Shown piece by piece: positions 25,405 through 53,513 of a stretch of DNA of 64,000 bases (positions within the stretch are counted from its first letter, which is position 1; every line of letters starts with the position of its first letter). Below the pieces are notes generated by a model. That model saw only the letters and a list, made by a program, of their open reading frames with translations, was not told where the DNA came from and did no database searches. The position numbers and the translations under genes are program-made. Source of the DNA: Antedon mediterranea (Eukaryota > Echinodermata > Crinoidea > Comatulida > Antedonidae); the NCBI RefSeq assembly GCF_964355755.1, contig NC_092675.1:8342312-8406311 (forward strand), given 5' to 3'.

Positions 25405-28019
25405 GTAGTTCAAGTTCAAGTTCAAGTTCAAATTTATTCACATAATGCAAACATATACAAAATATAAAAGATACAAGTGGTTGGAAATTAAGTAAATAAT
25501 AGTTGCATTATGCCTGGAGAATACCATTTAAACCCCAAGGGGCTTTAAGCCTGGATCCACCAGAAAGAATAAAAAAGTTAAAAAAGATAATAATAAGCAA
25601 AGTGATGGTACGCTACTGACAGACAGAGACGGACATGTACGACGATACAAACACGACAAGGACGACAGGAAGGACAAACTGTATTTATATGATTTGCCTA
25701 ATTAAATTTAATTATAAGTTATTAATATGATCAAAATAATTAATTTATTTTATATTTTGATATTAGATAAGATTTGTAGTTTATTTTTAGAGTATTATTT
25801 GTTTTGCTATTAGTTATTGACGGATTAAGAGAGTTCCAGAGTAGGGGACCAGTATGTAGTATAGAGTTAAGTATTTGCTTACTGCTATAGTTTTTGGAAA
25901 TGTAGTTGTTTGCGTTCCTAGTGTTATATTTGTGTAGTTCGTTATTTTTAGTGAAGAAACCGTTGAAAGTGGATGGTAGTTTGTTATTTGAGTACCTAAA
26001 CATGAAGAGGGCAGTTTGCAATTTATTAATGTCAAAAATGTTTAGGGTATTTAGGGTGTGAAAAAGAGGTTTAGAGTGGGAGAAGTATTTTGAGAGAGTG
26101 CAAATGCGAAGGGCCTTTTTTTGGAGTTTGAAAAGTTTGTCTATTTTGGTTGTTTCCGTGCTGGTCCATGGACAGAGAGTTCGATGTTTTGAGTTAGTGG
26201 CTGCCCATGCAATGTTGCAGTAAGAGAGATGTGGAAGTATTAGAGTATTATATAAAGAAAAAAGGATGTTAGACGGAAGAGTGAATTTAAGTTTATTTAG
26301 TATGCCAATAGTTCTTGAAATTTAGTTTGATATGTTATTAATATGGAGATTCCAGTTCAGTTTATTATCAATAATTACACCAAGAAAATGGGTGTGGTCG
26401 ACTGGTTTGATGGGTATATTATCGATATAGATATTTGTATTTGTAGCATTATTATTGTTTTTATTTCCGGAAAAGTGAATGTAATTTGTTTTGCTGATGT
26501 TTAGTGAAAGCTTGTTGATTTTAAACCAGTTTGAAACGTTTCGGATTTCTCGGTTGAAAGTTTGAATTAAAGTGTTAGGATCTGGGCTGGAGAGAAAGAT
26601 ATTAGTGTCATCTGCAAATAGAACATAAGAGAAATAGTTTGAGGCATAAATCAGATCATTTATGTAGATTAGGAAGAGAAGGGGACCAAGAATAGAACCT
26701 TGAGGAACGCCACATTTAACAGGAAGGATGTCAGAGGAGTGAGAATTAAAAGAAGTGAATTGCATTCTGTCTTGAAGGTAGTTAGTAATTAGGGATAAAG
26801 GAATTCCACGGATGCCATAGTGGTTAAGTTTAGATAAGAGGATTGAGTGGTCAATAGTGTCAAAAGCTTTGGATAGGTCGAGGAATAGGCCAATGGTGTG
26901 ATGTTTATTTGATAGTGCGACAGAAATTTTATTTGGGATGTCAAGAAGTGCGAGATCAGTGGAATGTTGTAAGCGGAAGCCATACTGGTTGTTTTGAAGA
27001 ATGTTATGGGTAGAGAAGAAATGATAAAGTCTGTCATAGATAATGCGTTCTAGTATTTTAGAAAAGCAAGGTAGGAGAGAGATAGGTCGATAGTTTGAGA
27101 AGGAATGTGGGTCGTTCTTTTTGAAAACGGGGATTACTTTAGCAGTTTTTAGGGAGGAAGGAAAAATACCAGTAGAAAGAGAAAGATTAAAAATATGAGT
27201 AAGGGGACCGGCAATAAATGGTGCAATATCTTTTAAGACCTTAGGGTCAATGTCATCCGGCCCAGAGCTTTTGCCGTTTTTAAATTTTGATGTGATGTCG
27301 AGAATTTCTTTGCTAGAGGTGGGGGAGAAGAAGATAGAGTCTTTGGTGGGGTTGTTGAGAAAGTCAGAGAAATTTCCACCGTTGGATTGGATTTTTGAAG
27401 CAAGCTTGGGGCCAATTTCAGTAAAATATTGATTAAATTTGGTAGCAATTTCAATGGGATCAGTTAATTTAATGTCGTCATTTAGAAAAAATGTGGCTGT
27501 TGTCTTTTGGATGTTTTTCCCTAAGATATTATTGATTGTTTGCCATGTTTTTTTTATGTTGTTTTTGTAATTATCAAATTTATTTGTAAAATGTTGTTTA
27601 CTTGAAATTCTAATCAGATGGGTAAGTTTATTTCTGAATGTTATATAGTTGGTTTTATTGATTTGGGTAGGTGAATTTATGTATTTTTTATATAGTTTAT
27701 TTCGAGTATTTATAGATTTTATTATTCCATTTGTTATCCAAGGTTTGTTTAGTTTGCGTTTATTTATTTTAATTTTTGTCCTTGGAATATTAGTATTGTA
27801 TAATAAAGAAAATTTATCATGGAATGATTTATATGATTCCTCCGCAGAGTTGTTTTCATATACCTCATTCCAGTTTGTGTTGATTAAATTGACACCTAAT
27901 GATGCAATTGTTTTAGAATTAATTTTTCTTGTGGAGTACGTATTTTTAATTTGTATCTGACGAGTATGAGAGTTACCATTGGGATTATTTGGTATTTGGA
28001 ATATTGGGAAGTGATCGGA
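25405..28019 (-). mobile_element. 5'-truncated non-LTR retrotransposon (CR1/L2-like)
   Basis: The minus strand encodes the end of an endonuclease domain (SDHFPIF at about 28010), a linker, and a full reverse transcriptase. RT motifs are SNYRPISLLP near 27090, [13 protein letters not shown] near 26870, [10 protein letters not shown] near 26710 and VLFADDTN near 26620. A C-terminal region ends at a stop at 25740. A TAA at 26322-26324 interrupts the RT C-terminal part, so this copy is inactive, although the frame is otherwise largely open through the RT core. The 3' end carries a short tandem run of GAACTT units (25407-25430), typical of the CR1/L2 group. The 5' end is cut inside the endonuclease domain, about 110 bases before the start codon of the C1orf87 homolog. 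Confidence 0.9.
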
Positions 28020-28129
28020 AGTAGTCTATCTAAGCTTAATTCCTTGTGTTTAAAGAGAACACAATTTGATATGGTTTCGATAAGTACAATTTTCTATTAA
28101 TAAATGTTTACTTTCAGCACTATGATATC

Positions 28130-31100
28130 ATGAGTCGCAAGAAACACTCGGCGGCGTGCAATGCTCCATTTGGGACCGACGTTCAACCAACATGTGACAT
28201 GAAAATTATTGGGGGAAGAGCAGTGGAAATTCCTATGGAATCACCGGCAGTGAGGTAAACAAAATTCCAGCATTTTTTTCAGAACATTTAAATATACTAA
28301 ATAAATTATGCACTACAGTTCGTTATCAAATCCATCTTTCGGCCAAGTATCTCTACTGTGCTAATTCACCATCTTGAACCTAAACTACCATTTTGTTTCT
28401 TGAACAAATACTGTACATTCTTTATTTATTTATTACCTTTACTTATTTAGTGCAAAGAAGAGTGGCAGAGATTTACCTCCGGTGCATAACAGTCCAAAGG
28501 AAAGTCCCCGAATACCAAGCCAGTTCAACTACCAAACCTTTAATGATCTTTCACAGAATAAGCAATCTAAAGAACAGGTAGGTTTAAATGATCTGATTTT
28601 GGAATTATGATTGAAATCAACTGGAAAAGATAACAAAGAAGTCATGTCATGTAAATTTATTGTTATTTAAAGTAATGACATTCTCAGGAAGACGATTGTA
28701 TCATAACAACTGATATGTTGAGAGATTCTCAACCATACTTTATTTCCTTTTGTGTACTGCAAACATAAAGGCCAACTAAGACAGCGTCGTCGAGTTGTCT
28801 CGCCGGGAGAAGATTAAACATGTTTAAAGTTCTCGCGACAACCTAAAAACTATGCATATTTTGTCGTGCCTCATCGTACGATGCTGTTTGAGTTGGCCTT
28901 AACTTTACTCATTGTTCTTCAAAATTGTTGAAAATAGGGATTTTCTTATACCTAAGTTGGATATTCTTACATATTCTGAAATATATTGACAACAGAATGA
29001 TACAGATACAGATTCCTTTTCTTATCCAATATTAAATGGAAATTATAGATAGATAGATTCTATTATTTCGCCTAGTACTATTTGATTTTAAAAATACCCC
29101 TTTTTCAGCAAGAACGACTGCGAGCAATTGCTTCTAGAACATCTCCACCAGATAAGAGTAACTCCCACATACATGGTATTAGGTCAAGGTCAGGAAGCCT
29201 TCCAGGTGCTCACAGGTCAGTAGAAAAACTTGATTCACTTAAGCAAAATGTGTTATTTTGATTTTGCTTAAGCAATATAAACTTTGTTTACTTGCTTAAG
29301 AATAGTTATTTATACAGTATACAACAAGTAACATTTCATATGTTAAAGTTACCTGTGTAACTTTAACCTAGCCATGCATATCTAATAAACCAAAATAAAC
29401 AGAGAAAGTGACAAATTTGCACATGTAGTAGATTGCATTATTAAATGATCTTTAAAGGGCTATAGAAATTAAATTTAAGAATATTTACTTTCAGAATTCT
29501 TCCTCCAATACCCAAGTCTGATAGGCCAACCTATCCCTCTAGCGAGAACACACCATGTTCAACTGAAGTAATCTCACCAAATGAGATCCAAGACAAGTCA
29601 AAGATATCAATGACTGTTCAGTTACAAGGCATGCTTAAAGAGTTTGATCCAAATTGCTTTAAAGACATGTACAAGAGCCTAGCAGAGTTTGATCACAGGT
29701 TAACAGGCTATGTAAACCAAGCTCAACTCAACATGATAGCACTGCGGCATGGCTTACCTATTCCAACAACCATGTTGAGACTGCTTTTTAGTAGCTTTGC
29801 AAAGGGTAGTAACCCTGATATGGTCAATTATGAGAAGTTATTACAGTACCTTGCCAGGGCACAACTGGGTTCAGCCAAGGCTGAAACTATGCTTCATGAG
29901 TCGATAAACAGGTACATTTATTGGAATTTCCAGATTTAATCTTGTACTAACTTTTTTTATATTGGATCTTTTTGTTCCGGCGGTAATGACACTGTATCCT
30001 TTTCCGTGCTATGCTAACTTATGCCCATTCCTTTGTAGGTTCCTTCTCCTAGCATTACCTTTTTCCAATTCTTTTAAGTAGTTTTAATGGCTTTCGTATA
30101 TTATCTGATCCTCAACACAGTATTGTTTGACTCAAGCTTTGAGATAAAGAATTGGAAAATATGTATTACATGAAAGAATAGAAACATAAACTTCAAATCT
30201 TAGATTTTGTGCCAAATATATATATATATAGCAGAATATTGTCTGTCCACCAGATCAGACATAGTTCAATGATTGCCTGTAAAGCAGCACTTCTCATTAA
30301 ACCAAACCAGATGTTCTATTCTTTTTATCTATTTCTAGATTTGTGAGTGAAGTAAAGACTCTGGATGGTCCTGATGAACAAGTTTCCTTAGATGAGAAAA
30401 TGGCAAAGTTTGAAGCAATACTCATCAGAAATAAACAGATGTCGCATGAAGAAATTGCTTTAACAGAAAAAAGCCTCAGTCGACAACAAGAAGACTATCA
30501 ACAGATTGAACAAAGGTAATAATTGTTCTGCATGAATTTAATAAGCTACACCTGAGTCATAGCCACCAGTACTACAGGTGGTGAGGTTCACATTCAAATA
30601 GAAATAAGTGAATTTACCCTAGACAATGGATGAGTATTTGCTTTTTTCCAACTTTTAAAATGTAAAGGGAAAACACCATACTATATACAGTATAGCAGGA
30701 CTCTCTATGGTACAATTTGACACATTACTGTAAGGGAAAACACCAAACTATATATAGCAAGCATAGTACAATGCGACATGCGAACAATTAAAATTATTAA
30801 GATTGTTACTATAATAGTTCTTTCTCTTCTACAGTATCTTGCACTTACTACACTACTGTGCTACCAAATACTCCTCACCCCTCTTTAATCTGCCTCTGAA
30901 TTACACCCTTATTATCCTAGCTACATCTCTGAACAAGAAAAATATCATAACATGCAAAATGGATCTATGATTTATGAAGTAATTTAATTGATTGTTGTTT
31001 TAGGGAAAGTAGGCGTTCTTATGAGAAATCTGAAATTCAATCACCAATTATTTATAAGTAAGTAAAACCAGAAATTTTCCTTCAAAAAGCTTTATCTTTT

Positions 31101-36267: not shown

Positions 36268-36428
36268 AAGCTCTGTCTACACTATCCATCTAGTTTGCAA
36301 AAAAATGTGATGTGCCCAAATATGGTAGTGATATGCTCAAATATAGTAGTGATATGACATCACCATGTCTATATATGGGCACATCATATTTTTTGTCACA
36401 TAAAGTTTAATAGTGTAGAAAGAGCTTA
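36268..36428. mobile_element. MITE family A, full-length copy
   Basis: It starts AAGCTCTGTCTACACTATCC and ends GTTTAATAGTGTAGAAAGAG, with internal GCCCAAATATGGTAGTGATA and GACATCACCATGTC blocks. At about 160 bases it is a good model of the family. It is intergenic. Confidence 0.85.
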
Positions 36429-37880
36429 TAGAAAGATCAAAACACTGTTGTATATATACTACTGAAGGGCATCATTTACATATACCTGTATTTTCTATTT
36501 TGTGCTCCTTAGTATGACTATGAGTATTTTGTTTCAAAATGCATACATATATTGTAGGTAGGTCTATTTTGTGCACCAAACATCTGTATAATGTGCATTT
36601 CTGTGCATTGGAAAACATACTTATTTTTGTGCATTTTAAATTGCAAAAGATAGTCATCCATAATTGAAAATAAATTAATAGATTATTCTTCATATACAGT
36701 GAATAAAAGTAATTTCAAATTGAATGGAAAGTAAAATGAAACCATATTTAATATGCCTTAGACCCCACTACAATACATCTACAAGCTGTTTAAGCTGTGT
36801 AGTGTTACTACAAATTAAATTATTGATTTTTTTTAGTCATCCACTACCACCACAAGCCACAATTTATTCATCACTGAATGCTTTTATTTAAATTTAGATA
36901 ATTATTCATATTTCTCATCTGTATGAAATTGGATATAGAATTGTTGTTTAATATTCAGTCAGACAATTTATATTCTGTGCACGTATCGGTTTGCTTCGGT
37001 ATAATTTTACAGCCTAGTTTTTTTTCCTCACTGCAGTTTATATAACATTCAATTTAATGGATGGATTCTATTTTAAAAATCTTCCCCCACGCCAAACTTT
37101 TCCTCACGAAAACAACTCAAAATGTCAATCTTTGATATAACCAAGGCAATCTATGCCTTAAAAGTAGTTGTATGACACTATTGAATAATAAATACATATA
37201 TTTTTAGAATTTAATTACTATTCTCTGTATGTTGCATGTCATAAGACCATGTTATCCAAATATAACAAATATATTAACAGGTTGCAATGATGCCTATTTT
37301 TCGAAAAAAATGTTTTAATACGATATTATGTATTATGTATCTTTCATGTTTTTTTTCATAACCGGTTGTTATGCGTCTATGAAGATAATAACATGATATG
37401 TTCTCATACATAGCAATAATATTGTATAAAAAATTCTATATTTTGGCTATTTCTTTAAATCTCATAGTAGTTGAGAGATAAATACTAAAAATGTGTACTT
37501 TTCTGGATTTAATGTACTAATATTTCTAAATGTGCCTTACGATCATGTTATCATATAAATGATATCTATTTTTAGAAAGAAAAAAATCATGAGCTGTTAC
37601 TACACAAGGTTTATTTAAAAATTACTCAAAGTGTGGATTGGATTCAATATAGGCCTACGTAATTGTGTCCTCATCCCCCACCCCCACCAACTATTAATTT
37701 AAGAGTAGAAAGTTGTTAAACCTATGATACAGTTTACTTATAGAAGTAGATGCAGCTATTAAATTATTCAAATTTATTCATTTATATGTTTAGATTACAT
37801 TAATAATTGTTATTTTTATGTCACAGTTAACCTTTTTTTATACACTGTATTATATTAGATGATGACCGAATTATTTTATT

Positions 37881-40800
37881 ATGCAAGTTCTACTGATCAA
37901 ACGCTTTCTGCTTGGACTTGCTACAGTGCTCTTTCACCTGTCATTCGTTAACACATCTGGATGTAGAGATAGCGCCTGTTTTCCACAAACTGTAACATTC
38001 AGTCAAATCCCAACAACCTCCATAACAGTTTTACCACCAGATGTAACATGTGACAACTCTATTTGTAAGGTACTGTAGATAAAACAAAATTAACAATAAA
38101 TAATATGTATAATTCAATTAGAAACATAGAAATCAAAAAGAATTCTACCTCAATATCTATAATTAGAACTTACATTACAATAATCAATAATCAACTGAAG
38201 TATAAATAATGATGATCTCAAAAGACAATCAAAACAAGCTGTTGGCTGTCTGCTCATCAAAGTGTGTGAACAATGTTTGTTGAATTACAACATTACATTG
38301 GCAGCACAGTAATCACATTACAATGTCTCGGTTGGGGCAAATTTTACCCTTTAGATTGACAGAATTATATCCCAGAGAAACATCAACAGTATTGTACTGT
38401 ATTACTTGTCTGCCCATGTTTGCTATACATTGTACAAAAGGAAGAAAATAAAGAAATAAAATAACAGTTTATTTAAACTCCAAACTGTACTTCCCAGTTA
38501 AAGATAATGTAGCATTTAATTGTTTAAGTGTATATTTTATATTATATTCTTTTTAGATAAGTCCAATATCTGAAAAAGTTGTACCAGAATTAATAATTGA
38601 CAATGAAGGAGAAGACACTACGACTTGGTCAAGTAAAATATGGTCCAGTACATCGACCATTCCAGAGGTCATCATTACTGTAGATCTCGAAAAAGACCAC
38701 AGTTTAGAAGATGACCTAACTATAACGTTTCGGTCTGAGCTTCCAGAAGCAATGATACTTGAAAAATCTAGCGACTACGGAGAAACATGGAACACTTTAC
38801 AATTTTACTCAACAGATTGTTTTAAAGATTTTTCAGTGAATGAAAGTTCTCGTAGCTCTGATGTTCAAAAGACTACAGATGTGTTATGTGTTAATCCATT
38901 TCAAAATCAAATTGACAATGGTGTACAGTATGTTTATTTCTTGGTTACGCAAAGGTTTGAGTTGCTTTCACCAGGCTTGTCAAATCCAGAAGAGCTTTTT
39001 ACGGGTTTAGAGGAGGATGTTGCATTAAGAGAATTCTTAAGCCTTACGAATCTAAGACTGAGGTTGTCTAGACCTACATTTAAAAATCAAACCAGTTTTG
39101 ATCCAGGAAACACATCAATGATGTATCATACAGCTCAATACGCAATTTCAAACATTGAGACTATCTTAAGGTATTTACAGAATTCTAACACTACTTCTTC
39201 TGATGTCAACCAAACATCTCTAAAGCTGACCTTCCACATAAATAATTCTAAAAATACTGTACTAGAGCTCTGTCTACACTATCAAACTAGTTTGACCAAC
39301 AAAAATTGTGGTGTGTCCAATGGTAGTGATATGCTTAAATATGGTAGTGATATGGCATCATCATGTCCACATATGGGCACATCATATTTTGTTGTCACAT
39401 AAAATGTTATAGTCAGACAGAGTTTTAACGCAAAATCTCATTTTACAATACACATAATTAGTGAGGAGCCATAACTGTTAAAATTGTTAATAATAAAATC
39501 CTTATTTATTCCAAAACATTTAACAATAAATGTTATGCTAAGAAATATATTTACTATAGTAAAACCTAACATGAAAATTATTTACTATAGTAAATATAAA
39601 TATACATTTTCTTTCTTTTCTTTATAATTTTCAGTTGCAACTGTAATCTACATGGCAACTACTGTGATTTAAAAGATGGTGAATTGTCTTGTCAATGTCA
39701 ACATAACACAGAGGGACGGGACTGCCAAAAGTGTTTACCCACCTATGATCTTGTGCCATGGCAACCGGGATCTTTTTTACCAGTCACTAAAGGTACTGCC
39801 AACAGCTGCAAATGTAAGTTTACAACTAAAGTCTCCCTGTATATTGAATTTAGTGGTGTTGTGTTGAGAAAAAAAGTGATTTGCATAAAATATGTGACTT
39901 GGCAGCCATTAGATCATTCACCCAATATTGAAAAAAAATATTTCTTTTTCTCCATAATACTCTTATAGAATACAATTTTACATACAATGAATGCAATTAT
40001 AAAAGGCTAGTTTGAATAATTTTCAGTTTTATAAATAAACAAAAAAAACCAAAAAACTGTTTGCTATTATTACGAGTGAAAACTTGACAAACATAAATTG
40101 ATAATTAAGGACCGGGTGTATTATACCCATTAAATGTGATATTGATGATATGATTCAAATAACTTTAAGATTACAAACTATAGAGGGTGGTGTACAGGGT
40201 AGGAAAATATCCTTTGGGGCATGTAGTGAAGAGTTTTGGGAAAGGGTTCAATAACTTTTCCAAATTTAAAAACCCATAAAAACCATTTAGTAGTAGTCGG
40301 ATTTATTTTAAAGTATACATGAGATGAAACAAATGAACTAAATTATGATTATGATAAATTTATGGTTGGTAAAAAGGAATCATATCTGGAATTATGAATA
40401 TTTATATCATGTTATTTTTTAAAGATTAATTTTGGCTCAGCAAGCACACCCATCAAATAATGGATAAGTCCAAACTCTTATTGTGTATCAATGCATGAAT
40501 TGTTTGACAGCACACAAAATTCCAATTACATCACAATAAAGGAACTACTTTTAAATCTCACTATTCTTCCTACCATCATCTTTATGACAATGCTTACCGA
40601 AGCGCAACCAAACAATTCATTCAGGTATAGTTAGGTTTATTCCAGTCGAAAGACCAATCCACCTTGATAACGCTTTCGTGACACTTTATTAACATATGGA
40701 CTGTTTAACCAAAGATGTCTGTGAGAAGTTTAGTTTAAGATAATAGGAATTTATAAGTGTTTATGTTGGCTGTCAGAATGAGACACAGTTGTAGTAACTT

Positions 40801-43800
40801 TTCTTGCTGTATTATTTTGTATGGCTATGCATATTATTATTATTTTATATGTATTGGATTAACACACAGTCAACAAGGTAAGAAAAGTGGTTGTATATCA
40901 CTATACTAGAAATTATTTTGTTACTGACAATGCACAATTAAAAAAAAATATGTTATACCATATAACTACAGTAATTACAGTTATATAGGCAGACTAGAAG
41001 CAGGTGACATATAGCCATTCAAATACATATAGTATACATAAGATTCTGGAGTAAATCAAGAAAGAGAAGATACTGTGATCACATTGGTGAAATCAATGAA
41101 AGTACACTTATCAAACTTGAAAACTTGTTCACAAAATCAACTTAAATATCACCTCAAAATGTTTTAAATGATTTTGCTATTCTAATGTTCGTTTTCAGTA
41201 AGTCCTATTCAAACCACCATAGCATCTATACAAACCACAGCAGCAGCTGAACTGCTTCCTACCACCTCAATATGTGAAACAGAGCCATGTGAGAATGGAG
41301 GAACTTGTCAGAAAACAAACAATGGATTCTCATGTCAATGTACTGAAGCATACACAGGTAACATTTTTACATTTCTCTATTATATCTTATTGTATGTCAA
41401 TAAGAAAGTAAACAAACACTCTTTAGAGTTTACTAAGTATGCTCCTTTGTTTTAATATACAATAGAATTGTAACACAACTAATCAAAGGTTTAAGGCAAA
41501 TCTCCGCCGCAGTTGGCGCAAATGTAAATGGTCTGTCAGTTTATACATTTTTGTAGTATAGTCAGTAGCGTTACAGAGAAAAGGGTCTTTCACACCTGTT
41601 CTGGCACGGTTTCAGTCCGACACCGGCAAATCCAATCGAATGTCAATGTTTCGCTTTTACGCGGCTACGCGCATATCGATTGCCGCACAGCCGTATGGAG
41701 CGACGTGAAAACAAAACATTGACGTTCGATTCGCCGGACCGGAACAGGTGAGAAAGACCCTCAATACATTACTCTGTGTGTTCATGTTGAAAGGTAGCGT
41801 GCAAAGTTGGCTCTCTTCGGCTCATTCATTCATCAGTGGAAAATTACTTTGTTTAATTGATTGTTTACATGTTGAATAAAGTTACAGAACCAAAAGATGT
41901 GTGTGTGTGTGTACCTGTGCTGTATGTTATGTGTTGTATTCAAAACAAGCTAAATATAACAATTTTAATATAAAAAGAAGAATTGGATACAAGTAAATTA
42001 CCAATTCACATTTTTACCGGTAGTCATGCTTTTGTTGTTTAACAGGAAATAGCTGTGAGAATGCTGTAGACCCATGTCAAAGTAACCCATGTATGAGTGG
42101 TCATATTTGTACTAATGACAACAATGGATATATTTGTAAAGTAGAAGATGTAAGTACACAATAATTACTATCACCACATACTGTAAAGATATTAGCAGGC
42201 TTTTTAACAGAAGAAGCAACACTGTGGTATATAATTCAATTATTATACTGTTATTATTTAAGTTTCAATGACTATGGACTTCGTCAAGTGAAGACGTGTT
42301 TTATCTTTATTATAATTTAATTTAAATTCATTCTGGTTATACGGTACTTCCAGAAAGTGTCCGTTGCCATTTGTTATGTCTTCTGCTGCTGTTCACTATA
42401 AATTAAATTGAAACTTTTACAGTTTTTGCTTTATTTTGTGTTGAAAATACTGCAATAAATTTAGGCGAATAAATGATAAACTGATACTTTAACACTTATT
42501 TACATTACCTGTTATTGATTATTATTATTAAAATATAGTTCTATATAAAAGGTTGGATATTATAATGTATGCACTTTTATAAAAAAAAATATTTTACCAA
42601 CTAACTAACCAGCAAATAGCTTCTTTATTTTTTTGTTAATAGTATATTCAAACAATTGTTAATAAGCTTTAAATATGAAAAAAAAAAAAAATAATGGAAA
42701 TTCTAGAGCAAATAATTATTAACTTGGATACCTTTAAATGTCATTACCATAGATACACAAAGCAACATTTTCCAACATAATCACAAAATAGGTTTGTTGG
42801 GTATATTATAATAATACCATGGAAACGTATACAATTGCTTTGGAATTTAATTTTAAAAGTAATTTTTATGCATTTGTATTTTTTAACTATATAAATATGA
42901 ATTGGCACTATTCATATTTTTGTTGTACAGTATATTGATTACTAAAAGTTTTCTAATTTGAATGCAATGAAAGATGATAAACAGCAGTCTAGATTCTAGA
43001 TAGCATCTTGACTTACTGTACACTGTAATATTGATAAAAAGATAAATATTTTGGCATATATGGCGTTTCATACATTAATAGACAAAAATATATGCCGACT
43101 CAGCTGGTGGACATCAACATAAAAAAAGACAATAACTAGATACTGTACTTTGTATACACTGTCCTTGAATAATTTTGAAGTAGTATTTGATAAAGTTAGT
43201 ACTAACTCAAATACTGGACACGTTTTTTGCTCGCCCAAAATGGTTTCCAAATACAATTTCAATAGTATAAACCTTTTTAAAAATTCTGGTCAAAAAGGTA
43301 CACTGAAATGTCTGAAATAAAAACTCTGAAATCATACACGTGTTCCAACATGTAATATACAGAATTTTGAAACATAACCATCTAGCTTCTTACATGCGGC
43401 CTAGGTCTATTCAATTCTGGCAAGACGACCACAAACGGCAATTATTTAATATTTTGAAACATAGAGGAAAATCAAATAGAGAATAACAAAATAGAACACA
43501 ATCATGCTGACTGTTCAAAGTCTCTGTAAATCATTTGAACAAACAAGAAACAGGGAAACACTGAAATCTCTTGGGAAACATTTTCTAATTTCTCACTACT
43601 AGTTAACACATCAGATATGATACTGGAAAAAATCAATAACCAATCAATTTAAGATTGACAATATCTTGTAGGATTTCCCTTTGGAAAAAACAGTGATGAA
43701 CAGTTAAAATGGTCATATCCTAATGGTCATCTGTGATCTGTAGATTACTGATGTTTTTATGATCTGGTATTTCTGGATCTTTTATACTATATATGGTCAG

Positions 43801-46800
43801 TGCCAACCTAAACAAAACTATTGTATCTCAGGGATTAATTGTCTCCCAGGGATTAATTGTCTCCTGACAAACCACTTAATAATAACCTTGGAAATTCGTA
43901 AAATAATTTCCAAGGGAAGATTGAGGGGGCTTGCTCCCTCATTTTGTTAGAGCTTTAATGTTCAAATGCTTATAAGCCATGTGTAATTAAAATTTACCGT
44001 GAAATAAATGAAGCATGGTCCGGCCGTAGAGATAGAATAGCCTTCGGTTTTATTATACCTATACTGTAGGTCTAATCAGTCTGCCTTAAGTTTTAGTAGT
44101 GTACAGTATGTGACTGATGAGCTATAGCAGCTACTGTAGACACTATGGGCTAAGTACTCAAAGTCATAATCTTCAAAGTTATATATTACTGTATACTAAT
44201 GTGGCTACTTAAACAAACTGTTATTGATCCAAAAGAAAACCGTAAGATACATAGCAAATGCTCCTCCTTTATCCCATTCCAATCCTTTATTTTCTTTATT
44301 TGGTCTTCTTAAAATTCAGGATATTAACCATCTTCAACAAAGTGTTTTCCTTTATTCATGGCTAAACTCGATCCTGCCATCACACTTTGATGATTTATTT
44401 AGTTTCAATCTTAATTTTCATAACCACACTACTCGGAGCGCTAATTAAATACGTATTCCTTTTTTTAAAACTACTTCTTTTAAACATAGCATTAAGTTTA
44501 CTGGTCCTAAACTCTGGGATAACGTACCAGTTAATATAAAAAGTGCTTTGTCTAAGAAGAGTGTTTCTTTTAAATTGAAACGGCACCTCTTATCTAGTTA
44601 TGTTTAATTATCCTTTCACTCATTGTAGTTTTGATATTTAGTCTTTTCGGTACCCTGAAACTAAAAGTCTTCATTACTGTTTTTGTCCTGTTTCCGGTTC
44701 CTGTGTTGTCCTGTTTTATTTTTCAGTTTCTATGGGCTGCCTTATACAAGCTTCGCTTTCTAGGAATGTTGCCCCTCTTATTTTAATCATATTTACTGTT
44801 AATTTTTATTTTCTATGAAAGACAAGAAGAGAAATAAATGTTACTTTGATTGATTGATTGATTGATAATTAGTAAATTACAATGCTACAGTACTGTATGA
44901 TGACATAATGAAATGCAGTACAGTACTGTATGATGACATAATGAAATGCAGTGTGTATTTACACATTCACTCTACAATGAATTCAAGCAATTAAAATAGG
45001 CTCTTGGGGTTAATTGAATAAAAGTTCCTTAAAAAAGACTATCTATAATAATGATACATAGATATCTATATTATTATGCATCAGGTAAAGTAGCTAATTG
45101 AATAAGACAAATGTGGGTATGCTCTGACGAAAGATTTAAGATCTACCAGAGTATAACTTAAATGTTTTAAATGTACTGAGCACTGGTACAATTTTAATTA
45201 TAAGTACAGTGTATTATAAAGTAAAGTGTGTTCTACAGGTAAACCATAATTCCGAAAATATAATTTGGTGTACATTGGTGGAGCTCAATTCCTTCATACA
45301 CTTAAAACTTTTAGCGCCACCAATTTTTACCAGAGGTTAAAGGTCATTATGTCTAGATATTTTTAAAATGCATGTCTAATTAAAAATCAATACATCTGGT
45401 ATCAGTCATATTGTTTATAGATTGTCTATTTATATCTGTGTTTGATTTTGTCACTTTTTAATTATTCGTCACTAAGCTTTTTAATTAATCAATATAATAT
45501 ATTGAGCTTTCATATTGTAATTTAGATTTAAATTCTATGGCATTTAGTGATATGTTACACGTTTAGGGCATGCAAATATAATTAGTGTGTTTATCTGGTA
45601 AGTCAGAATTAAAATTGTTCTATAGGCAAATATTTTTATTTAGTAAATGTTTTGTAGATATTAGTGTTACAATGATGTAGTACTGTACTCTAATGGTATA
45701 ATTGTTCTATAGGCAACAGTTTTAGCATGATACGACTATTTAGTCTTTCTTTTAGAATGTTATACTGTAGTGTCACAGTGACATCTGTTAATGAGTAGTA
45801 TAATTTTGTTCAAACTTATCTGATATTTGAGTCATCTCACCGACTTGAAATCAAATCGTTTTTGTATTTTTGTGGATTAGTGAAACAATTAAAAATCAGA
45901 AAGAAATCTTCTTTGTTGGTTAAATTTTACTATTATGCCTCCTTTAGTATAAAATGCTTACATTTTTTAGATTATAAAAACACATTTAATTATTTCAAAT
46001 ATTCACAATACTATTAACCATTATTTATTATAATTTTTATATTTCTTAACAGGAAAGTGGTTTATCTAAGAAAACTATCATTACAATAGCAGCCGTATCT
46101 GGTGGTACTGCAGTGTTCATTGTATGGGTGTGTTTTATAATTTACTACGGAACTTACAGACAAAAATTGCAAACGATGAACCGCAAATCTCAGAAGTATA
46201 ATGTACAAACAGCTAAGGTAAATGGTCAGTCTATGTCCGGCCATTACACTGTAAGTTAAATAAAAAATATTGATAAAAAGCATATACCCCCCTCATCAAT
46301 GGGATTCTACCCTTGCACCATTTATCCTGCTTTAACCTTTGACATGGTGTAATGTTATTTTTTTTAAACTTTTAACCAGCTAGTTAAAATTTACACACAC
46401 CTATATATTACCCACTAACACTCATACTTGATACAGCTACTGTAATCTACACTGCATTTTAACTTAATATTATTAAGAAAAATATTTTGGCACACATGCC
46501 ATTTCATACGTAAGTACTTGACATTGTAATTTACAGACAGGATACCAAACATAAAGAAGATAGACAAATACAGTATGGCCTATTTTAATAATTATTCCAT
46601 GGTAATACTGGATCCTTTAACACAATGAAAGAGCATTAAATGAAATCTAGTTTACTTAAATATACAGTCTAGAACACTTAAAAGGGATAGCCATATTTTG
46701 GAAACAAACAAACCAAGTTAAAATAATCATTTGAGTTTCAAAGGTTCTTAAAAATGACTGAAAATATTTAGTAAACAAAGTTTAAACGGTATATTTTCTT

Positions 46801-49800
46801 ATTAAAATGAGCTGTTAAGCAAACAATATGGAGAAATTGACCTTTACTAATGAATCCTATCTGCATTAGTAAAATAACAAGTAATGAACAATACATTGTT
46901 AACAAAAATAGCCAAATTAACATAATTTAAATAGTTTATATTCTATTGTTCCCTTTTTTTTGTTGGTATTTTGGTAAAAATTACTTTTTCTAACTGCATG
47001 GTATTTTATTTACCGACCTTCCTCCAAACCTCAATTACTGGTCTTATTTCTACTCTACTATCTAAAAATTATGAATTACTATTCAGAATATTATATACTA
47101 CATTATAACAACAGTACTGTATATTAGTTTCAACAAAAGCTAACACAGCGCAATATTAGTCTATATCCATTTTCTAATACCCAAATATGCAAGTGCTTCA
47201 TTAACTTACAGTTATTATCATAAAGCAATTTTGCTATTGGCGTAATTTATATATAATATACAGATAACAAATTACTATAACTGTAATTTATAATAGCTAG
47301 TAAATATGAAAATAAAAGACATGATATTTTTTTTTTTATTTAAGAGCATTAAGCAATCGCAATTGCTTGGTGAATGAAGATTAAAACCAAATAGTAACTT
47401 CAAATTGTATGCAATTTTGTGTTTATTGGGTAAAGATATTCAACAGAGGGGTTTTAATATAATATAATAAAATAATAATAATATATACTAATATAAAATT
47501 GGAAAAGCACTTTTACTTTAATATTTTCATTAAAATAATAGAAATTTAAAATAACAAAAAATAAAGATAGCATTCTGTATACTTCACGCTTGTATAAATA
47601 TTATAAAATAAAGCAAAATCCTACTATTGTTATTCCAACCATAGAAGAGTACAGATTTGTTGATACCTGATGGTTTAAGCTCTGCAAGAGTGCATGAACT
47701 CCAAGACAAATGGAACATCAAAGAAAACAACCTGATGTTGGGTAAGCTGCTCAGAAGCGGCAAGTTCTCATATGTGTGCGAGGGATCGCTGAAAGAAGAC
47801 GATGATACCGTAGCCGAAACCAAAGTTGGTGTCAAGTTACTTAAAGGTATCAATAACACATTTTTAATGATCACAATCAAAAAAAATAATATTACATATA
47901 AATATAAAAACAATTTATAATTTTATTTTTATTATTATCAATGAAAATTTCAATTTAAAAATCCGCAATTCTGGCAAGATGTTATAAATATTTTCATAGA
48001 ATCTTGTTATGTATTGAAAATACAACAAAATATAAAACTTTTACATTTTGACTCATATTCTCCACCAAAATACACAACTTCTTGGCGTGTCCAATGGTGG
48101 GAATAATTGATTTGATTTTAGTAAATTCTTTTAATTGTTTATAGATGAAAGCGATGAGACAAGTAAAAATGAGATGTTAAATGAGTTTAGTATTTTGTCT
48201 ACTATTGGCAAACATAATAATACAGTACATCTACTAGGAATGTGCACCAGAGTACTGGAACAATCAAGTAAGTCAACAGCAAACCTTTTCCACAATCTGT
48301 GGCCTAATATTCACAAATCTTAAGAAATATATTAAAAAAAACTTAAGACACCAAAAAACACTTCATGGCGAGACAGAGGTCCAGTGGCTAACATAATAAA
48401 TATTTAAGGATTTGTCTTATGATTTGGTACTGTATTTTAATGTAAATTTGTCCAAGCCGAGTTGTGGACGCCGAGCCACTGGACCTCTGTCTCGACATGA
48501 AGTGTTTTTTAGTGTCTTAAGTGTTTTTGCAGAACTCCATTTGGTTGACTGAAACATGGAGTTTTTTCCTTCATAATTGAATGTCTATGCGATGGCATAG
48601 CAATTAATCAATCAAAAGATTAAGTGACATTGGACATTTAGAAGGCTTTTGCATATACAAAAAAAAAAATATCCTTTTCATCATAAATACAGTTTTATTG
48701 AGAAAAAAAATTACCTTTCCATGCCAGTACAGTAGTTGATATTGACTGAAAGTTGATATCAACTAACATCAATGTATCAATAAGTTTGTCTGAACAGTTT
48801 TAATTGTAATGCAATCCATTCTTGTTTCAGCTCAACTTTGTTTAGTATTGGAATACATTTCTAGAGGAAATATGCTGAGGATTTTGAGAAGGTGCAGAAG
48901 CAGGCGAAGGGACCAGCCCCCGATAGATGCCCTCCCAGAGGATGAACTGCTTGGATATGCTAATGATGTCATCCAAGGTCTCAAGCACTTAGATTCACTA
49001 GGGGTAAATTATCCTTTTTTATATTCAGACTATAGCATACAATTCATGAAAAGGTATCAGACCTGTGAGATTACATATTCAAATGAGTAACAATTTCTAC
49101 AATAATAACAAATTTGGGAAAACTATTCTAGCAACATTAAAAGCATCACAAATATAATTTTAAAGCATCCTGGTACCTGTTTTGATAAAAATTTGCTATA
49201 CATTTTCTCTATGTGTTTTTTAACATTTTTGATGCAGATTCCCGATAGCCACAACCTACCCTTAAAAATCCAATAACTCTGCGACAGATTAGAATAATAA
49301 ATAAATATAATAATTATTTCTAATGAATTATAAATTGTTTTCTCTAGATTCTTCATTTGAACATATGTGCAGAAAATGTTCTCATCACGTTCAACAATAA
49401 AGCAAAAATATGCGACTTCAGACGATCTGTTGAGATTCAAGAGCCTGAGCAATATATTAAGTACACTCCTCATCATGATGTAAGAATGCTATGGATTTAT
49501 ACAGTCACCTTTTTCCAAATCGAACTTTTTCAAAAAAGATCTGCAATTCTTTCCTACTGTTCAAAATGTATTATGAGAGACTTTCTAGAAAAAATACATT
49601 TTGTCACGTATGTGTTAGAAAAGTAAGATTATAGAGGATAAAAACGATTAATATCGTACTTGAAAAAAAATGTCAACTTGACATGATTGAGGCTATGTCA
49701 AAAGAGGACCATCCCACCTCCCTCAGTCAAAACAAGATTGAGCCTTCAATTGTTCCTTTTCTGCCAGACCAAGGGGTTTGGTATTATGAGAGTTTTAATA

Positions 49801-51580
49801 CTTACATATCTAAGACACCACCACTTTTGTATGTGCAATAGATATCAATTATCATAAAAATTGTGCAGAAAATAAAACAAGATGGAGAAGCAGGGACACA
49901 CCATGATATCCCATGTTCCACAACCGACACAGTTGAATTACACATTTTTTCTTCTATCATTTCAAAAGAAAAGCTTGCCATTACATACTATATGTATGAA
50001 TATAAATGAACAATAATTTCTCTTTACTTAGGAACAAAAGAAAAGGTGGATGGCATGTGAAACACTAGACGGAATCTACAACACCAAAAGTGAAGTGTAA
50101 GTCGCTGCTATGCTTTCATTTAATTTCATTTAAAACTTTATTACACAGTACAATGCTTTATAATACACCATAGTTTTTAAATTTAAAATATCAGATACTA
50201 ACTAGCAAAAATACCTGCCAGTGCCACCCCACACCCACACTCCCCTCGCCATCTAGAAATATTATGGCAAGATGGGATTTGAACCAAGCATGTCAACCAC
50301 AAACCTACAACGTCACTCAAAAATTATCTTTCTAGCAGCACACAGCAGTGTGTATGCTTCTGAGCTGCATGTAGTGTTGTAAAAGAAGTGCAGTAACTTC
50401 TGGGTGTCATTTTTAACTTCTCCATAAACAAATTCAATAATAAAAAGTATTAATTGTATTATTATTTATTTCATAGCTGGTCATTTGGAATGTTATTGTA
50501 TGAAATTGTAACATTAGGTAAGTACAGTACATTTAAGACACTACATAGGATATTATCAAGTAGACATTTTGAATTGAATTAATGTGTGAAATGCCAGATG
50601 AGATAGGCTTCAGTATAACAGTAGACTCATCATGAAGAAAAAAAACAACAAATTCTTCATTCTTCTTCTCTTTTATATGGTGTCACCATCACCAAACTTG
50701 GAAAGGAATAACAATAAAGTATGATGATAGTGTTGATGTGTACAGCATAGAGCCTTACATTACAAAACATTCTTCTAAAGCTCTGTCTATACTATCAAAC
50801 TAGTTTGACAAAAAAAGTGTGATGTGTCCAAACATGGTAGTGATATGACGTCATCGACAGTATACAGTATAATAAACTGTGGATTCTCAAAATGTCAATT
50901 TTTTGGTACACAAACATTAAAAGATAAAAGCATACCTTATCAAAACCATTTACTACTTGCTTCTCAGGTGGAATCCCATATGCTGATATCAAGATACGGA
51001 ACTTGAAAGAGAAGCTTAAGGAACACCATCGCATGGAATGGCCACGGCACTGCTCTCAAGATCTCTACAACCTTATGCTAAGCTGCTGGCATCGGCGTCC
51101 AGAAAGTAGACCAACTATCAACCTGTTGTCCAAAGAAATGAAGCTTTTTAAATCATCAAGCAAGGTATTAATACAAATTTAAATCAATGTAGTAATATAT
51201 ACAAAATATTGAATGTAAATTATTTGTATAACACATAAACTATACTATATATATCTATACTACAGTATACTGACAACCAATGACCTAACTAGGTCAGATC
51301 AATTGATAAATTCATCAAAACTGTGTCGAGCGTGTATTATCCCCGCTCAATGAATTAACATGACATACTTTGTTCGTCCATTGTCTCAAATCAAAAGCTT
51401 CCTAATAACAAATTCATAAAAAATGATTGCTTGTTTTTTAAAATAGTAAATTTACTTTTCTCCTTTTTTTTCTTTCAGAAAAACCTCTGTTTAAAGGACT
51501 ACCCTTTCCAAATGTATGTGGCTATCAGATATCCAGAGGAGTTTGATGATCCTATGGCTATTCAAGACTCATTTGTTTAA
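37881..51580 (+). CDS. Netrin-like ectodomain receptor with tyrosine pseudokinase domain
   Basis: Fourteen coding exons: 37881-38069, 38557-39170, 39635-39813, 41199-41357, 42046-42149, 46053-46250, 47645-47846, 48145-48267, 48831-49003, 49348-49479, 50032-50096, 50477-50517, 50968-51164, 51479-51580. They total 2478 nt (825 aa plus stop), and all phases close. Residues 1-25 look like a signal peptide. Residues 28-267 form a laminin N-terminal domain resembling netrins (DYGETWNTLQFYSTDC). A laminin-EGF module follows (CQCQHNTEGRDCQKC ... VPWQP, to 327), then a Thr-rich linker, one EGF and a truncated EGF (to 415). The transmembrane helix is at about 423-447. The RTK-like kinase domain spans about 505-790, with the beta-3 Lys at 545. 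It is closest in style to FGFR/RET kinases (IGKHNNTVHLLGMC). HRD reads HLN (650-652), DFG reads DFR (670-672) and the Gly loop is RSGKFS, so it is probably a pseudokinase. Exons 1-3 could instead belong to a separate gene (see exon 40778). I do not recognise an established name. Confidence 0.82.
39267..39427. mobile_element. MITE family A, copy directly after a laminin-domain exon
   Basis: It begins AGCTCTGTCTACACTATCAA and contains CCAATGGTAGTGATATG, GGCATCATCATGTCC and ATAGTCAGACAGAG at the far end. It lies about 100 bases past the donor of exon 2 of the receptor gene. The open frame of that exon runs on through the donor and into this element, which can mislead ORF-based prediction. Confidence 0.8.
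40778..40877 (+). CDS. Candidate alternative first exon with signal-peptide-like sequence
   Basis: From ATG 40778 this frame encodes 33 residues, MRHSCSNFSCCIILYGY then a Tyr/Phe/Ile-rich stretch, ending THSQQ, followed by a GT donor (GTAAGA) at 40878. The exon leaves one base over, exactly the phase needed to splice to the acceptor at 41199 (giving VSPIQTT). It would yield a shorter receptor with only the EGF, transmembrane and pseudokinase parts, either from an alternative promoter or as the true start of a separate gene. No transcript evidence is available here, and the hydrophobic core is unusually Tyr-rich, so confidence is limited. Confidence 0.4.
41582..41761. mobile_element. 180-base hairpin MITE
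   Basis: AGGGTCTTTCACACCTGTTC at the left end pairs with GAACAGGTGAGAAAGACCCT at the right end, and inner AATGTCAATGTTT pairs with AAACATTGACGTT. Its GC content is higher than that of its surroundings. It is intronic in the receptor gene. Confidence 0.75.
44200..44870 (+). mobile_element. 3' fragment of a non-LTR retrotransposon with (TTGA)n tail
   Basis: The frame encodes a LINE C-terminus: KKTVRYIANAPPLSHSNPLF, then a TAA at 44446-44448, then GPKLWDNVPVNIK and a stop near 44607. The 3' UTR ends in a TTGATTGATTGATTGAT run at about 44848-44867. 5' truncation and a microsatellite tail are typical of the CR1/L2 group. It lies in the large intron before the transmembrane exon of the receptor gene. 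Confidence 0.8.
48336..48528. mobile_element. Hairpin MITE in the pseudokinase gene
   Basis: AAAAACTTAAGACACC and TCATGGCGAGACAGAGGTCC at the left pair with GGACCTCTGTCTCGACATGA and AGTGTCTTAAGTGTTTTT at the right. The arms are about 60 bases with a loop of some 70. No coding sequence. It is intronic between pseudokinase exons 48145 and 48831. Confidence 0.75.
50778..50860. mobile_element. MITE family A, left-half fragment
   Basis: It starts AAGCTCTGTCTATACTATCA and contains TGTGATGTGTCCAAACATGG and TGATATGACGTCATC, then is cut off. It lies about 100 bases upstream of exon 13 of the receptor gene. Confidence 0.7.
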
Positions 51581-53513
51581 ACTTTTTTGTGCAATATTTT
51601 TACGCCTTGATTAACTATCATAAGAGACATCCACTATTTGCAGCAAAAAGTTTCAAATATTCAATTACTTTATTTTTACTATTACTATCAAAGAACAACA
51701 CATAATTGAAGTAAAACATTTTTTTTGAAATATGGAATAAAGATTTGATACTCCAATATAGTATCAATTTTATCAAGTTTTGAAACAACAACAACAAAAA
51801 AACAATATCATTTGGACATGAAAAGGAGAGTAAAATACTGGTAACAACAACAATCATTCTGTTATAAAGGAAGCTTTCCTAAAATTACCATACACACACT
51901 TGGGCAAGATGAAAATGTATCCCTTTAATTTCTGAAAAGTCACAATTTAAAAATTGTCCGGCTTATCTTAATTTCCAGTTAATGAATAATGTCCAGTGTT
52001 TTAAGTATTAACTTCTAATGGTAACTTAAGTGTTTATACCAAATACTCATAATCTTTACATGCTGTCATTGAGCAGGCATTAAGTATTTAAATTTAATTA
52101 AGATGTTGTACATTTTTAATACTAGGAATATCTTTTTCTAATTTAGCTTTCTTTTTTCAGACAAGACATTAGTACAGTTTAATTGAATTAAGATGACAGA
52201 TAATAATATAACTTTCAGTAACTTACAACTTGTGTTCATATAATTTTAAAGAATTTTATAGTAAACTAAACTGAGGAAATAATAAAAATTATTATTATTA
52301 AAACATTATCAATTATTAGTATGATTTTAAAATGTATTACTTTTAAATTATAATAGTTAATTTATTTGAACAAAGATATATTATAAGCATAATAAAAAAA
52401 TACAAATAGGTATTGCTTTTTCCTTGAACATTTTTTTGAATAATTTTAATAAAGATATTTGACTGTTTTAGTAGTAGTCTGTATTCTGTATTTTTTAACC
52501 ACTTCTAAACAATAGGATAGTGAATTACATAAATTACATTTTTATGAATCTACCACATGAATTTCCACAGAGTTTGCGATAGTTATTGAATTGAATAGCC
52601 CAAACCTATTATTCTTTGGACACAATTTTCCATACGGACTAGAAGTGCATCTATCTCAAGGCTTTACCTTTGGTAATGCTCTAATACCTCCATAATCAGA
52701 TGATTGTTGTGCGGAAAATGGCATTCAATTCTAGTCAATTTAATAAATACTTATCCATGGTATACCTCCCCTATTAATTTTTGCAATGTCTCATTTTCTG
52801 GAGAATCACCAGAAATTGTAACATCTGGTTGATCTACCTAACTTCTAAAAAAATAAATCAGACTGTTTTTATAGCAAAATATTAATATATATCTTCTTAT
52901 TTTTATAGTATCTGGTATAACAACCTAATGTATTCCAGCATCAATTTTATTCCCATGACAGCACAGTACAAAAGGACATCCATGTGTTTCTATCCTAGCC
53001 TAAACTTGGGATTTATAAATAGGGCATATACTGACCCCAAATAATACTCCTGGTTCTAATCGTATGCCTTTTCTCTTCCTGTGTTAATCCTGTACAAAGT
53101 TAGCGAGATTTCTTTCATAATATTTCTTTCAAATTCTGTATTTTAAACATTTAATATTCTAACTTAATTTTTTTTTCTTTGGGGGGTTATTTTTGTTGTG
53201 ATTTCTGTTGTGAAACATTTTTCATTTATGGTAATGTAACCAAATATTATATCTGCCTGTACCTTAAAAGGATTAAGAAAGGATTAATCATGCAACAGCA
53301 ATCATGAATGTATTATTAATTCCAGCTATCATAAAGTCTTAAGCTCTGTGTACACTATCAAGCTAGTTTGACAAAAAAATGTGATGTGCCCATATATGGA
53401 CATGATGATGTAATATCACTACCATATTTGGACTTATCACTACCACACATTTGTTGTCAAACTTACCTTTGAATATTTAACTACATCGATAAGTGAATGC
53501 CTGCTGTAGCACA
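51581..53513. other. Convergent intergenic region, receptor gene and LRRC41 homolog
   Basis: Holds the 3' UTR of the receptor gene (candidate AATAAA at 51736-51741) and the 3' UTR of the minus-strand LRRC41 homolog. A MITE copy lies at 53341. No further exon or RNA gene is evident. Confidence 0.7.
53341..53464. mobile_element. MITE family A, rearranged copy
   Basis: It begins AAGCTCTGTGTACACTATCA and TAGTTTGACAAAAAAATGTG, but the right half (ATATCACTACCATATTTGGA ... TTGTTGTCAAACTT) is a reversed left-half sequence. It is therefore a foldback derivative of the family, lying in the presumed 3' UTR of the LRRC41 homolog. Confidence 0.7.

Follow-up and report, generated by a model that had tools for sequence, protein, structure and literature searches.

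A candidate receptor gene in which a netrin-G-like LN-LE1 module precedes a tyrosine pseudokinase

The window considered here is a stretch of 64,000 nucleotides (C6:8342312-8406311) from an apparently non-vertebrate genome, which was searched over 354 Mb in 18 contigs. Its plus strand carries a 14-exon gene model encoding, in order, a laminin N-terminal (LN) domain, a laminin-type EGF module (LE1), a linker with further EGF sequence, a single transmembrane (TM) helix, and a domain of the receptor tyrosine kinase (RTK) type (Table 1). The LN-LE1 part is closest in sequence to netrin-G1 and netrin-G2, and the kinase domain has lost its catalytic aspartate. Judged from sequence similarity, netrin-G-like LN-LE1 modules appear at two places in this genome, and one of them lies directly upstream of a predicted receptor tyrosine pseudokinase.

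The 14 exons and 13 in-phase junctions proposed in the initial annotation are confirmed by a rebuild of the chain, in which 13 of 13 introns are GT-AG and 825 residues are open from the ATG at 37881 to a TAA ending at 51580. A Pfam scan of the 825-residue protein (E up to 0.1) places Laminin_N (1.3e-29) and EGF_laminin (4.3e-7) in exons 1-3 and PK_Tyr_Ser-Thr (2.3e-61) in the C-terminal half, and it returns no NTR domain, second laminin-EGF stretch, immunoglobulin (Ig) domain, or cadherin domain. The EGF match in exon 4 (4.5e-4) falls slightly below the Pfam cut-off, with 20.9 bits against 21.5. Hydropathy yields one strong TM peak, formed by 19-residue segments within residues 423-448 and reaching its maximum of 2.37 in the segment starting at residue 427. 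The predicted model has the layout of an RTK, with a signal peptide, a single TM helix, and a tyrosine kinase domain. The domain order originally described stands for the LN, laminin-EGF, TM, and RTK-like parts, while the supposed EGF repeats amount to one EGF and a second with four of six cysteines. Exon 4, previously taken for a plain linker in frame with exon 3, does keep that frame, and it also carries an EGF module that ends in exon 5. An assembly error joining unrelated loci, or a decaying gene, is a very improbable source of this model; all exons are open and flanked by GT-AG, and none contains a stop or a frameshift.

Table 1. Exons of the gene model and the candidate alternative first exon (positions in the window)
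Feature	Position	Strand	Basis or remark
Exon 1: signal peptide MQVLLIKRFLLGLATVLFHLSFVNTSG and start of LN domain	37881..38069	+	phase 0 donor; hydrophobic-core score 2.19
Exon 2: body of netrin-G-like LN domain	38557..39170	+	Pfam Laminin_N; genome-scan match C6:8380892-8381470
Exon 3: LE1 with CNLH motif and netrin-G PGSxLP insert	39635..39813	+	phase-1 donor
Candidate alternative first exon E0' MRHSCSNFSCCIILYGYAYYYYFICIGLTHSQQ	40778..40877	+	donor AAG/GTAAGA (slash marks the exon end), phase 1
Exon 4: linker and EGF module (last Cys in exon 5)	41199..41357	+	translation; netrin-G1 linker/EGF alignment
Exon 5: end of EGF1 and partial second EGF, 4/6 cysteines	42046..42149	+	translation
Exon 6: single TM helix and juxtamembrane segment	46053..46250	+	hydropathy
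Exons 7-13: FGFR/RET-class tyrosine pseudokinase domain	47645..51164 (47645-47846, 48145-48267, 48831-49003, 49348-49479, 50032-50096, 50477-50517, 50968-51164)	+	Pfam; PDB RET/FGFR; VGVK, HLNICAEN, CDFRRS, WMACET, EVWSFG
Exon 14: C-terminal tail, TAA stop	51479..51580	+	translation

The kinase domain finds its best PDB matches in RET and FGFR, and its N-terminal 201 residues are about equally close to FGFR, CSF1R, KIT, and RET. In the alignments with RET and FGFR1, the β3 lysine and the helix-C glutamate are kept, and the glycine loop reads RSGKFS. The HRD motif has become HLN, with loss of the catalytic aspartate, and DFG has become DFR, leaving neither motif intact. The earlier assignment as a pseudokinase is borne out by these motifs, and the domain is classed as a predicted receptor tyrosine pseudokinase that has lost essential catalytic residues. 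On C10, this genome also encodes an FGFR-like kinase that retains HRDLAARN and DFG. Elsewhere in the genome, the best two kinase matches, C6:1737032-1737841 (30% identity) and C6:20648371-20649180 (27%), are single open frames of about 400 residues. The next by score is an FGFR-like kinase at C10:16983516, and the match at C1:16763317 belongs to an EGF-array gene.

A second gene combining an LN domain with a kinase was not seen in the genome stretches read, which take in the downstream side of part of the 19 LN matches. The statement that no RTK with an LN domain has been described is not contradicted by the open-access papers listed in literature searches, among which no receptor uniting an LN domain and a tyrosine kinase was seen. 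A term search of the main text of a survey of the holozoan tyrosine kinome gives no mention of laminin or netrin (PMC8662651).

The protein encoded by exons 1-3 matches netrin-G1 and netrin-G2 among PDB sequences at about 1e-51 (178-180 bits). The next best match is netrin-1 (about 1e-20, 77.5 bits), and laminins score 2e-20 or worse. LE1 opens with CNLH and closes with a PGSxLPxxxGxANxC insert that is common to netrin-G1, netrin-G2, the window protein, and a laminin-like relative encoded on C4. This insert is missing from all four other rows of the same genome aligned to the LE1 end (L025, L027, L032, and L034); row L031 ends at PWRPGS, and the insert is not judgeable there. A classical netrin was also considered as the closest relative of this LN domain and is ruled out by the PDB scores and the LE1 insert. 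The label “netrin-type” given to the LN and laminin-EGF modules is apt as to netrin likeness and mistaken if a classical netrin is meant, since netrin-G1 and netrin-G2 are the closest by PDB score. As used here, “netrin-G type” denotes similarity and a shared insert, short of a proven clade.

Netrin-Gs are described in two articles as confined to vertebrates and anchored by glycosylphosphatidylinositol (GPI) (PMC4706652; PMC6408995). No claim to counter this vertebrate-only distribution was found among the open-access papers listed, only part of which mention netrin-G. A simple acceptor scan of intron 5, which keeps acceptors scoring at least 1, reveals no GPI-like terminal exon. A netrin-G-like module in a non-vertebrate would be of interest even if its fusion to the kinase were disproved.

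The C4 relative (C4:27638470 onward) harbors the other netrin-G-like LN-LE1 of this genome, which is closer to netrin-G1 than the window LN-LE1 is, with PDB matches of 1.7e-65 to netrin-G1 and 1.4e-32 to netrin-1. In both the window gene and the relative, LE1 is bounded by introns at identical residues, of phase 2 before and phase 1 after the module. These shared positions and phases suggest that the exon 3 donor was inherited, and it must be paired with an acceptor of phase 1. No kinase was seen in the 29.7 kb read around the relative. The stretch C4:27636659-27655300 (L001, L002) could represent a non-vertebrate origin of the netrin-G module.

Whether the netrin-type module and the TM pseudokinase belong to one gene turns on the junction of exons 3 and 4. 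A query running from LE1 to exon 5 aligns with netrin-G1 (3zyj_B) through LE1, the linker, and the EGF, crossing the junction, with an E-value of 7.7e-19. LE1 joined to exon 4 scores 263 against netrin-G1, compared with 196 for LE1 alone, and 3 of 225 other EGFs of this genome reach 263 when swapped in for the exon 4 EGF (median 237). Compared directly with the netrin-G1 EGF, the exon 4 EGF scores 82, a value attained by 6 of 217 other EGF repeats of the genome. The exon 3 donor scores 7.1 bits (own scoring matrix), and exon 4 provides an acceptor of phase 1. The only other acceptor in intron 3 that scores at least 1 leads directly to a stop, and read-through past the exon 3 donor adds 51 residues before a stop. 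In NTNG1, splice variation likewise affects a region that begins at the end of EGF repeat 1 and extends to repeat 3 (PMC6408995). A single gene comprising both parts is favoured over two tandem genes and is, with due reserve, the probable arrangement.

In the two-gene alternative, a gene A (37881-39813 with an unseen 3′ end) would encode a small netrin-G-like protein that is either secreted or anchored, and a gene B (40778-51580) would encode an EGF-TM receptor pseudokinase with a signal peptide of its own. Gene A is without a convincing 3′ exon, although its exon 3 donor is strong and the position of that donor is shared with the C4 relative; the scan of intron 3, which found no convincing terminal exon with which the netrin part could end on its own, is simple and insensitive, keeping acceptors of at least 1, yet 5 of the 13 acceptors of the model itself score below 1. 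The extension of the netrin-G1 alignment into exon 4 likewise speaks for one gene. What lends the alternative substance is the candidate first exon at 40778-40877. It has the features of a signal peptide, its near-consensus donor has the phase required, such an element is rarer than expected by chance given that donor strength, and the sequence is no repeat. Two tandem genes are considered rather unlikely, though a serious competitor.

Several observations weigh against a netrin-G-type module that continues into the receptor. With the same query from LE1 to exon 5, Delta-like 1 (1.6e-28) and Notch1 (2.9e-25) outrank netrin-G1, their E-values being sums over several EGF repeats, and the derivation of the exon 4 EGF from netrin-G is insecure. 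The exon at 40778-40877 joins exon 4 in frame exactly as exon 3 does, as an independent receptor gene would require. In the LN tree, the split uniting netrin-G1, netrin-G2, and the window protein receives 10.9/47 (Shimodaira–Hasegawa-like approximate likelihood ratio test (SH-aLRT)/bootstrap), so that the LN domain is unplaced. A mixture-model tree joins the window protein to netrin-G1 and netrin-G2 at 50/40 (bootstrap/SH-aLRT), with the window protein forming a long branch. These trees contain 10 rows, several of them partial, in an alignment anchored on netrin-G1 as the query, which may favour netrin-G1; a row of the same genome from C11 (96 columns) fell below the minimum of 100 and was dropped, and L038-L040 were left out. 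The pair of netrin-G1 and netrin-G2 by itself obtains 84.7/73, and the group of netrin-G1, netrin-G2, the window, and C4 obtains 86.2/52 (SH-aLRT/bootstrap). Under the mixture model, neither the topology with netrin-G1, netrin-G2, the window, and C4 (p value of the approximately unbiased test, p-AU, 0.436) nor that with netrin-G1, netrin-G2, and C4 (p-AU 0.338) is rejected. A constraint grouping the window with the genome's own netrin and the C4b rows is rejected at the borderline (p-AU 0.043).

The initial annotation relied on the in-frame join of the exons at 39813 and 41199 as an argument for one gene. Because 40778-40877 joins exon 4 equally well and in the same phase, that join is weak evidence and proves little. 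The broader proposal of a netrin module built into a TM pseudokinase draws support from the alignment across the junction and from the shared exon 3 donor, and is challenged by the rival first exon at 40778-40877.

The exon at 40778-40877 encodes a basic n-region, a hydrophobic core, and a small-residue cleavage site ahead of its near-consensus donor. At its donor strength, it is the sole element of this kind on both strands of the window, where a lax cut-off admits such open reading frames (ORFs) at a density of about 0.06 per kb on each strand. Among 3000 simulated introns matched in length, the rate was 0.0003 when its own donor strength was required and 0.013 when the donor cut-off was lax. 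Other DNA of the genome (238,112 strand-bases, coding sequence included) contains none at its own strength and 14 under the lax cut-off, or 0.08 per intron. These estimates are rough, the criteria having been chosen after the element was seen. A segment of 211 bases around the exon matches only itself in the genome and is non-repeat. Within the one-gene reading, 40778-40877 could instead be a chance ORF in an AT-rich intron, leaving a plain fusion with one promoter. The hydrophobic stretch does derive in part from TAT/ATT-rich DNA, and under lax thresholds such ORFs do occur, in the window and in other DNA alike; however, the element stands alone in the window at its own donor strength and has no counterpart in the 238,112 other strand-bases. 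This variant of the one-gene reading is rated as improbable.

Under the one-gene reading, the product would be a single-pass receptor with a signal peptide, a netrin-G-like LN domain, LE1, a linker, one and a half EGF modules, a TM helix, and a pseudokinase of the FGFR/RET class. Its most likely origin would be read-through transcription linking a netrin-G-like gene to a neighboring EGF-receptor gene downstream. First exons have no acceptor and are skipped in read-through transcripts. Such transcripts would lack the final exon of the netrin-G-like gene and the opening exon of the receptor gene, and the receptor's old signal-peptide exon, 40778-40877, would have been left stranded in intron 3. 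A read-through fusion would thus explain both the exon 3/4 join and the leftover exon, as first exons lack an acceptor. It is hypothesized that 40778-40877 may still act as an alternative start, giving rise to a receptor without the LN domain.

The LN-LE1 tip may contact a binding partner carried by another cell or by the matrix, with the EGF part serving as a short stalk. The dead kinase may act as a scaffold or by allosteric pairing with an active tyrosine kinase, in a non-catalytic manner similar to that of HER3. The complete proposal, namely a netrin-G-type module in a non-vertebrate that is built into a receptor tyrosine pseudokinase, is wired directly to a cytoplasmic signalling scaffold instead of a GPI anchor, and has a second promoter for an LN-less form, is put forward tentatively, its chances being rated somewhat below even. 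If correct, it would represent a receptor architecture not seen among the open-access papers listed and an adhesion module that signals via a dead kinase. It would also suggest that the netrin-G-type LN-LE1 module predates vertebrates, and it would offer a case of a read-through fusion that retained the old first exon of the downstream gene.

Other features of the window include repeats within and around the gene. A short, noncoding, high-copy interspersed repeat lies in intron 2 (39258..39420, plus strand), about 90 bases past the exon 2 donor, with at least 47 matches in the genome (40 scored out of 3296 first-look candidates). Further copies are seen by eye near 36270-36430, 50780-50860, and 53340-53470, and inside intron 5, at 44150-44820, the translated sequence looks by eye like the 3′ terminus of a long interspersed nuclear element. 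Upstream of the gene, the minus strand carries a reverse transcriptase ORF of 567 residues at 25740-28025 (Pfam RVT_1, 2.9e-37), similar by eye to elements without long terminal repeats and adjoined by an ORF of 193 residues. The minus strand also encodes a KIAA1045-type RING finger at 20470-20838 (zf-RING_15, 7.5e-19). On the plus strand, an ORF at 29466-29936 with a DUF5580 N-terminal domain (8.8e-15) probably represents one exon of a gene lying upstream. Elsewhere in the genome, 12 of the 22 matches to a homeodomain query, 11 on the plus strand and 1 on the minus strand, form a single Hox-like cluster at C2:7827797-8206135. The presence of just one cluster speaks against a vertebrate, and the residues of these homeodomains look ambulacrarian. 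A C1-set search, intended to probe vertebrate status further, yielded two matches above the family cut-off, both weak (5.6e-4 and 8.6e-4), and a COX1 search for a mitochondrial contig yielded none.

Among known systems, netrin-G1 and netrin-G2 are the closest to the LN-LE1 part in sequence, and they share its CNLH start, its PGSxLP insert, and the order of LE1, linker, and EGF found in the netrin-G1 chain of PDB 3zyj. In contrast, they are GPI-anchored, and the ectodomain of the window protein is followed by a TM helix and a pseudokinase. Classical netrins (netrin-1, UNC-6) also have an LN domain and LE1; however, they match more weakly, and their NTR domain and second laminin-EGF stretch have no Pfam counterpart here. 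The laminin-like stretch on C4 resembles the window gene in its netrin-G-like LN-LE1 and in the intron phases around LE1, but it continues by eye into more laminin-EGF modules and other long ORFs, which may form one gene with it.

The FGFR and RET RTKs are similar to the window protein in the sequence of the kinase domain. They differ in that the catalytic aspartate is lost here and in that the Pfam scan shows neither Ig nor cadherin domains. HER3 is a pseudokinase with HRN in place of HRD and with DFG and VCIK kept, as given in a review table (PMC13259870). HER3 and the window protein have in common an asparagine in place of the HRD aspartate and the retention of the DFG aspartate and the β3 lysine (PMC13259870). 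HER3 belongs to another kinase class and has another ectodomain. By analogy with HER3, the window protein may assist an active kinase without catalysis of its own. The two diverge in the glycine loop and in helix C. HER3 keeps GXGXXG and has a helix-C histidine (PMC13259870), whereas the window protein has a degenerate loop, RSGKFS, and a helix-C glutamate.

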